Below, piece by piece: positions 51,400 through 57,497 of a stretch of 58,203 nucleotides of DNA. The notes under the pieces were generated by a model that saw only the letters and a list, made by a program, of their open reading frames with translations, had not been told where the DNA came from and did no database searches. The stretch comes from Oscillospiraceae bacterium. GTDB taxonomy: Bacteria; Bacillota; Clostridia; Oscillospirales; CAG-272. Where the stretch lies: NCBI GenBank assembly GCA_015063535.1, contig SVTY01000012.1, forward strand, positions 1-58,203, in the 5' to 3' direction. Position 1 is the first letter of the stretch, and each line of letters opens with the position of its first letter. The position numbers and the translations under genes were made by a program.

Positions 51400-51450
51400 A
51401 GCAAAACAAAAGAAATCCGAAACCGTTGCCAACAGGCAAAAGTTTCGGAT
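51400..51450 (-). terminator. Ancestral tRNA-Asn terminator next to the outermost tRNA fragment
   Basis: A 9-bp stem (ATCCGAAAC with GTTTCGGAT) with an inner TTGCC/GGCAA stem is followed on the minus strand by TTCTTTTGTTTTG. It lies 10 bases past the CCA of tRNA fragment A, where the terminator of an intact tRNA-Asn would be. Confidence 0.8.
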
Positions 51451-51460
51451 AATTCTTGAA

Positions 51461-51610
51461 TGGCTCCCCCTGCTGGGCTTGAATGTCTGTCATGCTTACT
51501 TCCGAAAATTATCTCCCATCGCAAAACAACACTCAGTTGTTTTGCTCGGTCGCCTACCGACTTCGCTTAGCTCAGTGTTTTAGCGTATGACCGTTGACCG
51601 TAAAATCATT
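51461..51610 (-). repeat. Repeat A: tRNA-Asn 3'-end fragment plus arm
   Basis: On the minus strand this ends in the 23 bases of the tRNA-Asn T-arm/acceptor/CCA (one difference from the functional gene, T for C at 51480). About 130 further bases are nearly identical to repeat B at 55698-55895: four substitutions, all transitions, and lacking a 53-base segment. It contains a perfect 10-bp inverted repeat (GCAAAACAAC...GTTGTTTTGC, 51521-51545). Read as the displaced-3'-end (attR-type) boundary of an inserted element. No gene is seen in 51338-51719. Confidence 0.8.
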
Positions 51611-51640
51611 GATCGAAGTTCAACAAGGGAGCCAAACAAA

Positions 51641-51668
51641 AACCACCCAATCGGGTGGTTTTGTTTGT
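51641..51668. terminator. Bidirectional terminator after the Gfo/Idh gene
   Basis: An 8-bp stem (AACCACCC with GGGTGGTT), 4-base loop, has T-runs on both sides (TTTTGTTTG each way). Confidence 0.85.
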
Positions 51669-51719
51669 GCTCATAGTACAAAAATGCAACCATTCTTCAA
51701 AACGATGCCTTGTATTCAT

Positions 51720-52874
51720 TCAAAACTCGGGAACGGTAACAATTTCACCGTTTTTCATAGCTGATTCGTGAGCACAAATTCCGGTTGCGGTGATGTTTGC
51801 AGAAAAGATTTCGTCGATGGCGGTCTTTCTTTCCTCAATGATGCTGGAAATAAACTCGTGGCAGAGATGGGGGTGGGAAGCCGAGTGCATACTCAATGGC
51901 GCGGTATCCAGCTTGTTCTTCCAATCCTCGTCCAATTCCCCCCTCTCAATAGTGAATCGTTGAAGTGCCTCCGGAAGAATATCATAACGGTTGGGATAGT
52001 GCACCACCTCTGTGTTAAATCCGACACGGTCATACGCATTTTCGTCGTAGAACTGTTCCCAAACCTCGTTGCGGTACTCATACATGAAGCTCTTTTTAGA
52101 GCCGTAGATATTATAAGATTCGCTCTGCTTGACAGAACACTCGTGTACAGCGCGTGAGACCTCTGCTGCCAAACCATTCTCAAAACGGATAAGCATATCT
52201 TCTACAGGATAGGGGTTTCCGTAATTCTGTACCTTTTCCTCCGCCATTGTTCCACTACCCAAGCAGACCACACTACGAACGGGAGAACCCGCAGCTACAC
52301 AGAGAGGAGAGAGGGCATGACTGATGTACCACATAGGAGGCATTCCCTGCCAGTAGTGAGTTGTCTTAGTGTTCCAAGCACCGTGATCCATGCACTGATG
52401 ATGAACGCCACGCAAAAACTGAATACGCCCAAACTCATTATTTTTGAGCATCTCACGGGCATACAGAAAAGCCGTTTCGTATAGCTCGGTCTCCATCAGC
52501 ATATAATTTTTGCCACTTTCTCTCACTGCATCAACAATTTTTTTGATATCCTCCAACGAGATGGCCATTGGAACCGCGCAGGCGCAGTGCTTACCTGCCT
52601 GCAGGGTGGCAATTGTTAATTCAGCATGGCTTGGAATACCGGTACACACATGGACGGCATCTACTGTTGAATCTGAAAGAACAGCAGAAAAGCTATCGGC
52701 AATTGAAGTTCGGTTGGTAAAGCGTTTGCATTTCTCCAACGCTCGCGTGGCGTTCGCTAAATTATTGTCCACCAGTATCACGCGGTCCACATTGGGATGA
52801 GCCGCATATATGGGGGCAAATTCACAGCCAAAGCCAAGACCAATTACGGCAATGGTTAGTTTTTTGTTGTTCAT
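51720..52874 (-). CDS. Gfo/Idh/MocA-family oxidoreductase, lysine-less variant
   Basis: This 384-residue protein has an N-terminal Rossmann fold (AVIGLGFGCEF, 10-19) and a C-terminal alpha/beta domain, as in NAD(P)-dependent sugar oxidoreductases. The motif normally reading EKP, which supplies the catalytic lysine, is CAVPMAISLED here, so the lysine position is Val; I believe a subfamily with this change exists. The DHGAWN and GMPPMWYISHAL stretches may form the substrate site. AGGAGG precedes the ATG. Divergent from the AraC remnant, it may act on a sugar or sugar acid. Confidence 0.85.
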   Translation of the reverse strand: MNNKKLTIAVIGLGFGCEFAPIYAAHPNVDRVILVDNNLANATRALEKCKRFTNRTSIADSFSAVLSDSTVDAVHVCTGIPSHAELTIATLQAGKHCACAVPMAISLEDIKKIVDAVRESGKNYMLMETELYETAFLYAREMLKNNEFGRIQFLRGVHHQCMDHGAWNTKTTHYWQGMPPMWYISHALSPLCVAAGSPVRSVVCLGSGTMAEEKVQNYGNPYPVEDMLIRFENGLAAEVSRAVHECSVKQSESYNIYGSKKSFMYEYRNEVWEQFYDENAYDRVGFNTEVVHYPNRYDILPEALQRFTIERGELDEDWKNKLDTAPLSMHSASHPHLCHEFISSIIEERKTAIDEIFSANITATGICAHESAMKNGEIVTVPEF

Positions 52875-52933
52875 AAAAAAATCCTCCTAAATATTCTATA
52901 AAAAATCTCTATTATTATTTTAACAAAAAAGGC

Positions 52934-52962
52934 TAGACAATTCTCGCCAAATACTATATAAT
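52934..52962 (+). promoter_or_regulatory. Promoter of the AraC-like remnant
   Basis: TAGACA (52934-52939), 17 bases, TATAAT (52957-52962), with AGAGGTGA before the ATG at 53005; the surrounding gap is A+T rich. Confidence 0.65.
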
Positions 52963-53004
52963 AAATAGACAAAATTCAACCTTTTATAAAAGAGGTGAAC
53001 AAAA

Positions 53005-55691: not shown

Positions 55692-55697
55692 TTCAGA

Positions 55698-55895
55698 TGG
55701 CTCCCCCTGCTGGGCTTGAATATCTGTCATGCTTACTTCCGAAAATATAGTCGTTTTGCGCACCTGCGCTTGCTCGGCTTCAAAGCTCCTTATTTTCGTT
55801 ATCTCCCGTCGCAAAACAACACTCAGTTGTTTTGCTCGGTCGCCTACCGACTTCGCTTAGTTCAGTGTTTTAGCGTATGACCGTTGACCGTAAGA
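55698..55895 (-). repeat. Repeat B: tRNA-Asn 3'-end fragment plus arm
   Basis: It has the same composition as repeat A: 23 bases of tRNA-Asn 3' end ending in CCA, then the conserved arm with the 10-bp inverted repeat at 55811-55835. It has an extra 53-base segment (after 55746) flanked by GAAAATA/TATTTTC, which can fold as its own hairpin and contains GCGC-ACCT-GCGC. Read as the displaced-3'-end boundary of insert 1. Confidence 0.8.
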
Positions 55896-55915
55896 TCATT
55901 TATTTGGGATACCGA

Positions 55916-55929
55916 ATATTCGCGAATAT
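55916..55929. repeat. 14-bp palindrome ATATTCGCGAATAT
   Basis: A perfect palindrome lies just beyond repeat B. It could be an operator or recombinase site. Between 55930 and 56127 I see no gene or other signal. Confidence 0.4.
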
Positions 55930-56127
55930 GATTTTGATATTATCCCCATCCTTTCGTACTGTATTTGTCAACCGTGCATACGGCGATCCGACACAGCAAG
56001 TTACCTTCGATCTTTTCAGTTATGGTCAAACACAGAAATCGAACTCAAAAAAACGACAAACTTTTTTGGAAAAGCCACTCTGCGAAGACCGTTCATTTCA
56101 AAATGTTTATTGACTTATTACGTGTTC

Positions 56128-57231
56128 TTACCCAAATACTTCATGGAAAATTTCTACGTAATCCTGCATGTTTTTCAAGGAAATATTCGGCGGTATTCTA
56201 TGGTCGGGAATCGGAATATAACCACCCTTATCCGTTTCCTTTTTCAGTTCCATCAAATACGCACGAACCTCGTCGGGACTTCTGCTGAGCATATGCTTAT
56301 CAACACCGCCGAACATACGCAGGTCGTCTCCGAATTTCTCTCGCATTTTAGCGGGAGTTGCCCCCCACGTTCCCACTTCAACGGGGAACAAAATATCAAA
56401 TCCAGAGCCTAACCAACAAGGAACAAGGTCATCTACCTTACCGTCCGAGTCAATCAAAGCTAAGGGAACACCGTTCTCCTTATAGAAAGAAATCAACTTT
56501 CGATAATAACGATCATAAATTTCCTTATAAATAGTCGGAGAAAACAGAGGTCCGTTAGAGCCACAACAATCCTCAAAGAAGTAAACAAAATCGAATTTCG
56601 TTACTTCCAAAACAGGTTTCATCAACGTCATGAAATGATCCGTCAGTTCTTCCACGATCTCTTCCAAAAGAATAGGATCGTCGTACATAAGATACGAGAG
56701 TTCTTCCACTCCCATAAAATCTCTCACCCAATTATAAAGCGCACCGCCCATAAAGCAGGTTACCTTATCCTGAGCGTTAAGCGCTTCAGCTCTTTCCTTC
56801 AAATTAGCGGGATAACGTCCAGGAAGCTTGGGGTCGAGGAAACGGCGAAATTCTTTCCAGGATTCACGAGTCGGCTCAAGAGGATATTTCAAAGTATGTG
56901 GCATTGCGGTTTTGCCTTTTTTTATAAGAGACACTTTACCAATATGGTCACGTATAATACGGTGATCCGCAGTATCCTCAAGAATTTCTTGTTGCATATC
57001 CCCAATAGCGCCGAGACAAACCAAGCGCTGCACGCTCCAAAGATCGCCTTCCCATTCCGGATCCATTCCCGGAAGCTGAGGATGCTTATCGCCTTTTTGT
57101 GCGAACGGTCCCTCATAACCCTCATCAATCCAACGCTGTTTGGTTTCTATCCATGTTCCAAAGTAATAACACGGAATGCGATCTACAGGTTGGAAAGTAA
57201 AAACCCGATGGAATCTTTCTCTATGTGTCAT
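56128..57231 (-). CDS. Uroporphyrinogen decarboxylase-family protein (corrinoid methyltransferase-like)
   Basis: This 367-residue protein starts at ATG 57231 with AAGGAG 9 bases ahead. It has the UroD/MtaA/CmuA fold: MTHRERFHRVFTFQPVDRIPCYYFGT, a C-terminal GGVDKHMLSRSPDEVRAYL region and the loop DSDGKVDDLVPCWLGSGFD. The shared residues fit a cobalamin-dependent methyltransferase or demethylase more than heme synthesis (no RxPxWxMRQAG motif). No corrinoid protein is adjacent. It is the sole gene in insert 1. Confidence 0.82.
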   Translation of the reverse strand: MTHRERFHRVFTFQPVDRIPCYYFGTWIETKQRWIDEGYEGPFAQKGDKHPQLPGMDPEWEGDLWSVQRLVCLGAIGDMQQEILEDTADHRIIRDHIGKVSLIKKGKTAMPHTLKYPLEPTRESWKEFRRFLDPKLPGRYPANLKERAEALNAQDKVTCFMGGALYNWVRDFMGVEELSYLMYDDPILLEEIVEELTDHFMTLMKPVLEVTKFDFVYFFEDCCGSNGPLFSPTIYKEIYDRYYRKLISFYKENGVPLALIDSDGKVDDLVPCWLGSGFDILFPVEVGTWGATPAKMREKFGDDLRMFGGVDKHMLSRSPDEVRAYLMELKKETDKGGYIPIPDHRIPPNISLKNMQDYVEIFHEVFG

Positions 57232-57390
57232 AACAAACATCTCCTTGTTGTAAGATTCAAATATTTTCAAATGTGTCAATAAATTTTAAAACAACTCTCT
57301 CTTGTCGAATTCGGCATAATGACATAATTACCCTTGGAAAGTTTTTGCATTTCTAATTTTCTTCAAAAATCACATAAAAGGTAAAAAATA

Positions 57391-57415
57391 ACCCCGAAAA
57401 ACTATATTTCGGGGT
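57391..57415 (-). terminator. Terminator of the functional tRNA-Asn
   Basis: A 9-bp stem (ACCCCGAAA with TTTCGGGGT) lies 5 bases past the CCA, followed on the minus strand by TATTTTTTACC. Confidence 0.88.
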
Positions 57416-57420
57416 ATTTT

Positions 57421-57497
57421 TGGCTCCCCCTGCTGGGCTCGAACCAGCGACACCCTGATTAACAGTCAGGTGCTCGTACCGACTGAGCTAAGGAGGA
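57421..57497 (-). tRNA. tRNA-Asn (anticodon GTT)
   Basis: A complete 77-base cloverleaf: 7-bp acceptor TCCTCCT/AGGGGGA, anticodon loop CTGTTAA, T-arm GCTGG-TTCGAGC-CCAGC, discriminator G and encoded CCA. It is the last gene of the rRNA operon and the likely integration target for the inserts downstream. Confidence 0.97.

Follow-up and report, generated by a model that had tools for sequence, protein, structure and literature searches.

How do small groups of metabolic genes without a recombinase come to stand one behind another at the 3′ end of a tRNA gene? The question is raised by a 58,203-nt stretch of DNA (hereinafter the window), contig SVTY01000012.1 of assembly GCA_015063535.1 from an Oscillospiraceae bacterium (CAG-272), which holds an array of inserts at 51400-57497; unless stated otherwise, its features lie on the minus strand. 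The anchor of the array is an intact tRNA-Asn (GTT) gene with an encoded CCA (57421-57497; detected by ARAGORN and the Rfam tRNA model). Its last 23 nt are copied twice on the tRNA strand, at 55698-55720 (fragment 1) and 51461-51483 (fragment 2), with an identical single difference in both copies, as a sequence-only reading of this DNA had already noted; by our estimate, chance is excluded for a 23-mer with one mismatch in 58 kb. We favor, with a probability of roughly 60%, the explanation that the locus is an insertion array anchored at the CCA end of tRNA-Asn and built in two layers, namely tRNA-derived units, which we term X, and small gene cassettes closed by a common 22-bp end, which we term E.

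Two inserts lie between these three tRNA ends. Insert 2 (51669-55697, 4.03 kb) begins behind the CCA of fragment 1, has at its left end a terminator-like hairpin flagged by a terminator scan (55663-55691), carries an MR/MLE (mandelate racemase/MLE) gene (54059-55261), an SDR gene (53210-54052) and a GFO/IDH gene (51720-52874), and closes with E, GTTGCATTTTTGTACTATGAGC followed by ACA (51669-51690). Insert 1 (55906-57420, about 1.5 kb) likewise has a scan-detected terminator-like hairpin as its left end, directly 3′ of the tRNA (57391-57415), and contains a URO-D-like gene (56128-57279); its far end is approximate, being no clean junction but running into a shortened X unit 1. Thus, the inserts are small, as had been claimed, but their borders differ from those first drawn. 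The claim that they hold metabolic genes and no recombinase stands: none of the four genes matches a recombinase family, so the inserts have no tyrosine integrase of their own. Beyond fragment 2 lies an M20 peptidase gene (50183-51337), for which no match at an expect value (E-value) of 1e-40 or lower was found in four other genomes of the genus. The region contains 10 terminator-like sites as compared to a shuffle mean of 5.8. A terminator had been read behind each of the three CCA ends; the scan bears this out for the tRNA and fragment 1, whereas the hairpin of fragment 2 is visible solely as a 32-nt inverted repeat (51399-51466, 72% complementary) that the scan left unflagged.

Cassettes closed by the shared end E

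Relatives vary at this tRNA, a point that the sequence-only reading had proposed to check, the tRNA-Asn loci of genomes G032, G093, G180 and G043 being different. The two tRNA-Asn loci of G180 form an empty/occupied pair, in which the two flanks beyond the insertion agree at 224 of 229 positions and the CCA is repeated. The occupied locus holds a 4.3 kb insert with the terminal sequence TTGTACTATGAGC, in which insert 2 of the window also ends. In general form, E comprises 22 bp, GTTGCATTTTTGTACTATGAGC, and is followed by NCA. With up to two mismatches, 11 of 295 genomes of the order contain it; these 11 represent five families, and the reversed pattern matched nowhere. When only the first 19 bases are required, 30 of 196 genomes of the family (24 of 71 genera) have a match, the reversed control giving two matches. 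Six of these 30 genomes have only E sites without the CA, which look like chance. Of the unique E sites, which number 48 and include two in viral contigs, 40 show a CA within +4 to +6 and 37 precisely NCA. An E-like pattern in three viral contigs was taken as chance, the match lacking NCA and L431, the sole contig scanned, having no tRNA; comparison of E and the left-end region with plasmid and phage records gave no match. A 13-base right-end motif was mostly noise in the family (21 matches vs. 14 reversed) and pointed to the longer end.

An intact tRNA gene lies upstream, in the sequence examined, of 18 of the 40 CA-bearing sites: ten are at 153–241 bp (four tRNA-Asn, two Arg(CCT), and one each of Arg(ACG), Lys, Leu(GAG) and His) and eight at 1.1–6.4 kb, in assemblies that are fragmentary and whose contigs frequently break at tRNA and rRNA genes. 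Setting aside the eight CA-less sites and six more with less than 400 nt upstream, the stop codon of an open reading frame (ORF) of at least 90 aa falls between 30 bp upstream of E and 12 bp inside it at 15 of 34 testable sites, as compared to 4.0% (321 of 8000) of positions drawn at random from the same strands. For example, in locus L426 from another family, a 517-aa ORF stands behind tRNA-Asn and E starts at the base after its stop, and in L301 a single-gene segment behind a tRNA-Asn end codes for a 565-aa AraC-BNR protein. The cargo of E segments is diverse, including a histidine kinase, an FAD oxidoreductase, an LD-carboxypeptidase, an ADP-ribosylglycohydrolase with an HTH and several HTH_3 proteins. 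The latter (Cro/C1-type), with differing C-terminal parts, make up several of the single-gene segments (L300, L303, L036, L041 and L421). No recombinase was found in the E-closed single-gene segments examined.

Because E recurs at like sites in many genera and G180 offers the empty/occupied pair, site-specific insertion at the tRNA-Asn CCA end is supported as the probable origin of insert 2. The proposal of two successive insertions of this kind fares less well: insert 1 has no E, and hence such an insertion is established for one insert only. The same data bear on the alternative that these are decayed islands, former full islands that lost their integrase and were reduced by deletion to small remnants sharing one end. 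Such decay could account for the ragged far end of insert 1, for the CcrB-like recombinase and partial tyrosine integrase in the tRNA-Asn array of L423, and for the apparently truncated restriction R-subunit gene beside a NikA-like mobilization gene in the insert of L043. Nevertheless, we regard it as a rather improbable account, given that the segments recur, carry unrelated genes and have a stop codon close to E; random decay is not expected to halt at a stop codon while sparing E.

Returning to the two-layer array, an E cassette would consist of its own left-end terminator, one or a few genes and the 22-bp end; it would join the CCA of the tRNA or of a displaced copy and, on the far side, the former downstream DNA. 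Insert 2 would then be an E cassette sitting on the CCA of X unit 1. Movement as a cassette would be effected by a recombinase acting in trans; since the E-closed single-gene segments examined lack a recombinase, this earlier suggestion is plausible and a live reading, but the enzyme is only a candidate. Cassettes might also pass between genomes: a 747-bp cassette end is 98.9% identical in G180 and G190, from another genus, and the cassette end of G112 (89.5% over 248 bp) agrees with transfer. Because G190 has 7% contamination, we grade a G180–G190 transfer as likely from the sequence match rather than as shown.

Two further kinds of repetitive sequence were observed. One is a non-coding repeat of about 150 bp (TTCCGTACACGC.. 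or similar, then TCACTCTTCACTTTTCACT..) directly behind tRNA genes in L309, L314, L316 and L039 and behind the tRNA-Trp of G000 (L271); in the first four it is closed by E, and by eye its parts seem to pair in a pseudoknot-like manner. The other consists of arrays of short palindromes (..CCAATCCGAAGGATTGG..), which fill some E-ending tRNA-anchored segments (L308, L313 and L304).

tRNA-derived X units beside tRNA genes

What, then, are the displaced tRNA ends? The same arm sequence had been seen before each fragment, and it is indeed shared: 105 nt at 96% identity (51509-51613 vs. 55799-55903) and a second stretch of 50 nt at 98% that contains the fragment. It is, however, more than an arm, being part of a larger unit that derives from tRNA and has a structured core. 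In the tRNA direction, X comprises a palindromic terminator (in copy 2 only), an antisense tRNA-Asn, a D-loop return to sense, a two-hairpin core and a tRNA 3′ end with CCA. In X unit 2 these are the terminator at 51639-51662 (flagged by the scan on the plus strand), a nearly full-length antisense copy at 51566-51634 on the plus strand (about 70 nt aligned; none of 1000 shuffles as good), a core at 51499-51555 in which sequence comparison shows hairpin 2 to be deleted (42 bits with our covariance model R1), and fragment 2 as the tip. X unit 1 has a partial antisense copy detected by alignment (55855-55896, plus strand, about 42 nt), matched as well by 2 of 1000 shuffles against the tRNA-Asn of the genus and by 32 of 1000 against the window's own tRNA, a core with both hairpins (55736-55845; R1, 117 bits, being among the 16 seeds of the model), and fragment 1 as the tip.

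The antisense copies begin right after palindromic terminators, the arrangement that self-primed snap-back would yield, and the far end alone is common to many cassettes. This raises the alternative that the antisense copies, X and perhaps the cassettes themselves arose at the tRNA terminator hairpin by reverse transcription or by a template switch during replication. We hold copying of this type to be quite unlikely, as in the empty/occupied pair a segment equipped with its own terminator has been inserted cleanly, and part of the cases share a conserved left end (L2, see below).

In an alignment of 16 cores, paired cells reach 96.3% as compared to 80.1% in shuffles, and 14 pairs are changed on both sides; these seeds come from the genus and the family, beside tRNA-Asn, Ser, Met and Cys, one of them inside a reading frame, and the structure was drawn from the same sequences. 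The X core is, on this evidence, a conserved element with a predicted structure and strong covariation. No Rfam 15 family matched it at the gathering score in six loci, and in the window region (E-value ≤ 1) X unit 2 is touched by sub-threshold matches alone, the best being Phe_leader with 30.7 bits vs. a threshold of 55. X is not regarded as a tRNA intron, since the flanking tRNA pieces are mostly incomplete. In view of its hairpins, X might conceivably move in an IS200/IS605-like or REP-like manner. At the tRNA-Ser CGA gene of G000 (L263), a terminator and an antisense tRNA-Ser are accompanied by a hairpin resembling hairpin 1 of X and by a second, different hairpin; because of this difference, X may have relatives overlooked by the model.

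The covariance model finds the core in 57 of 196 family genomes (30 of 71 genera) and in 20 of 335 order genomes, 12 of which belong to this family and eight to five others. One form of the core occurs in at least 118 stretches of public records; the 80 matches listed are titled Clostridia or subgroups thereof and derive largely from ruminant-gut metagenome genomes. No X pattern was found in viral contigs. X units neighbor tRNA-Asn, Ser, Met, Cys and Pro genes and carry pieces of the respective tRNA, which mostly match the neighboring one, with recurrent breaks near tRNA positions 26 and 52-55. Among 106 cores with an E-value ≤ 0.1 in 79 locus sequences, 62 have tRNA-derived sequence within 250 nt, as compared to two of 1000 control windows from the same loci (intact tRNA genes masked), but the other 44 have no such flank by a test whose tRNA library is limited to the tRNAs of these loci. 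One core (L047:9988-10101) lies inside an apparent protein-coding frame with no tRNA nearby. Elsewhere, a core in inverse orientation adjoins an antisense tRNA-Glu copy (L128:5001-5114), and X copies stand in tandem at spacings of about 110–228 bp (L121, G071:C63:6485-7015; L120, G031:C9; L110, G089:C57). Genomes also vary in this respect: G032 has X behind tRNA-Cys and Ser(GCT), G000 behind neither, and G136 has none behind tRNA-Cys, nor in the 113 nt examined behind Ser(GCT), and its whole genome is without an X match.

Because X is found at further tRNA genes as well, with no insert in between, the view that the fragments are old tRNA 3′ ends simply pushed outward is unsupported; they are the tips of X units. 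Being tRNA-derived and carrying a copy of the tRNA 3′ end, X units would place extra CCA ends beside the gene, and these may serve as spare landing sites that spare the tRNA gene from insertions.

X and CA-bearing E co-occur in 12 of 24 genomes as compared to about seven expected (p 0.018, uncorrected for relatedness); counted on all 30 E genomes the overlap is 15 (p 0.007), dropping to 12 of 24 without the six chance-like ones. X and tRNA-Asn lie at the ends of rRNA operons in several loci, and G032 has duplicated X–tRNA-Asn–tRNA-Lys blocks, as might be expected if no mobile system existed and X were duplicated via ordinary recombination between rRNA-operon ends, trapping genes in between. 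This we judge very unlikely, since E sites are found at tRNA-Arg, Leu, His and Lys genes in unrelated loci and, of the 24 family genomes that have CA-bearing E sites, 12 lack an X match.

Left ends and candidate recombinases

Which enzyme might move the cassettes? One clue is a left-end module, L2, consisting of TAATGGGGCAACAATTTTGCACC and a hairpin, which is present in nine of 345 order genomes (reversed control: none). L2 stands behind intact tRNA-Asn (L448, L450 and L452), behind displaced or degenerate tRNA ends (L443, L444 (after an X unit), L445, L446, L453 and L301) and behind E (L448, L449 with a variant E, L451, L300, L363 and L374); one further site, L447, is assigned to none of these three groups. 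As it follows tRNA end, displaced end and E alike, these would be interchangeable upstream halves with only (C)CA in common. Given that the CCA of X unit 1 carries insert 2 and that a segment with L2 follows an X unit in G084, X-borne ends have apparently been used at least twice. In L452, a gene directly after tRNA-Asn and L2 (926-2341) codes for an Mrr-type restriction domain fused to an FtsK gamma domain.

Since the last bases of E are its own and only (C)CA is common to E and the differing tRNA ends, the crossover overlap would be about 2 bp, a length more in keeping with a large serine recombinase than with a tyrosine integrase. Known tyrosine integrases use an overlap of 6–8 bp. It is nevertheless conceivable that these are tyrosine-integrase islands inserted in the usual tRNA 3′-end mode, with E as the far attachment arm: tRNA 3′ ends are their classic target, one tyrosine recombinase shares a contig with two E sites (G048, L303) and another adjoins an X unit (G180, L105). 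We consider this unlikely, as the (C)CA common to E and the tRNA-Lys, Arg, Leu and His ends is too short for such an overlap, and the window's genome (84% complete) has one Xer-like gene and one broken fragment as its tyrosine recombinases.

For the in-trans movement of E cassettes we therefore regard a large serine recombinase as the preferred, first candidate, a lead rather than proof. Of 196 family genomes, 46 have relatives of the candidate, and a related end motif, E2, stands behind four of 28 recombinase relatives as compared to a background of 1.7%. In L304, three consecutive ORFs have recombinase domains, with the catalytic domain in the last only, 349 bp before E. A Ccr-like recombinase in the tRNA-Asn array of G133 scores 129 bits, far below the cut-off of 900. 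A second end motif besides E (AAAAATATCTTTTTTATAGCCC..ACA or similar) was observed after large serine recombinase genes in L385/L088, L386, L387 and L393, and with no recombinase found beside it in L115, L118 and L300:14289; in L088, 16 bases of tRNA-Met T-arm sequence stand before it.

Several observations weigh against the explanation that we favor. None of the recombinases directly abuts E: in L304 a non-coding hairpin segment separates the serine recombinase from E, in L413 about 1 kb with one gene lies between them, and in L423 the gap holds the remnant of a tRNA end together with a short segment. Relatives of the candidate recombinase (E-value ≤ 1e-60) are absent from all five genomes of the window's genus, where no search was made for weaker or unrelated serine recombinases. 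E-CA-L2 shows the expected inverted-repeat symmetry only weakly (p 0.01 to 0.24), and this symmetry was dropped as proof of a serine recombinase site. Within six mismatches the only E in the window is that at 51669, leaving insert 1 without one. The near-identical cassette end of G190 may be misbinned DNA, and assemblies cannot reveal circular cassette forms.

Relation to known systems and significance

The window shows a displaced tRNA 3′-end copy together with insertion at a tRNA gene, the hallmark of tRNA-targeted and additive islands. Additive flexible genomic islands are gene cassettes at tRNA genes with tRNA-end direct repeats and variable content, described in Candidatus Actinomarinales (PMC7771536), and the fGI-2 (flexible genomic island) examples of Candidatus Methylopumilus range from 330 bp with one gene up to 42 kb (PMC10872708). 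The present cassettes resemble them in being inserted at tRNA genes, in the tRNA-end repeats that mark insertions and in their varying content; they differ in the 22-bp end common to segments at several tRNAs and across families, in the presence of X and in coming from other phyla. Accessible portions of PMC7771536, PMC10872708 and PMC11389934 contain neither a cassette end shared across different tRNA genes nor an X-like element, in a coverage that leaves most of the subscription literature outside. Thus, tRNA-targeted cassettes are already in print for marine Actinobacteria and freshwater Methylophilaceae, and what appears to be new here, within that coverage, is the shared end E and X. Tycheposons, 4–200 kb elements with a tyrosine recombinase as described in the accessible part of PMC10872708, also place metabolic cargo behind tRNA genes; the four insert genes, in contrast, include no tyrosine recombinase. 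The islands that Islander finds are tRNA-targeted and integrated by tyrosine integrases (PMC4383910, as far as accessible); the intact tRNA with a displaced fragment is common to both, but here the fragments are X unit tips and there is no integrase of their own.

The nearest functional parallel is offered by integrons. In these the recombination site of a cassette lies close behind the stop codon, and attC sites are folded with R and L boxes. Integron cassettes and CALINs (clusters of attC sites lacking integron-integrases) are small, form tandem arrays and, where an integrase is lacking, are moved in trans (PMC11389934, in its accessible part). E cassettes share the small size and a site just behind the gene (15 of 34 vs. 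4.0%), but their anchor is a tRNA 3′ end and, by inspection, the 22-bp E has no R or L boxes and is no folded site of the attC type. The window's inserts contain no integron integrase, and the tyrosine recombinases near E (L303) and X (L105) reach 49 and 88 bits, below the model cut-off of 265. The array, in short, works like an integron cassette array, yet lacks what defines an integron. We tentatively posit an integron-like system in which tRNA CCA ends would be the entry, E the cassette site, an enzyme would act in trans and X units would be folded, tRNA-mimicking protective decoys; in this complete form the proposal is possible but somewhat improbable.

The staphylococcal cassette chromosome (SCC) and pseudo-SCC elements use Ccr large serine recombinases and form arrays at the 3′ end of rlmH, with members lacking a recombinase. 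Here too there are arrays at the 3′ end of one gene with recombinase-free members, and a Ccr-like recombinase in one tRNA-Asn array; in contrast, the site is tRNA-Asn and not rlmH, the units are many and of 0.2–4 kb, and the recombinase is not next to E.

Insert 2 thus belongs to a dispersed family of small cassettes, found in relatives behind a number of tRNA genes, and in gut Clostridia a candidate enzyme acting in trans seems to add genes directly downstream of tRNAs. The X core is an oddity in its own right, a covarying element unmatched in Rfam 15 at gathering scores and often assembled with pieces of the neighboring tRNA, whichever that is. If the two-layer array is the true explanation, uncultured gut Clostridia would possess their own system for collecting cassettes. 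Its 22-bp E tag makes the cargo easy to list across metagenomes, and would give a handle on the route by which integrase-less cassettes get to tRNA genes and on the way in which a tRNA gene present in a single copy withstands repeated insertion.

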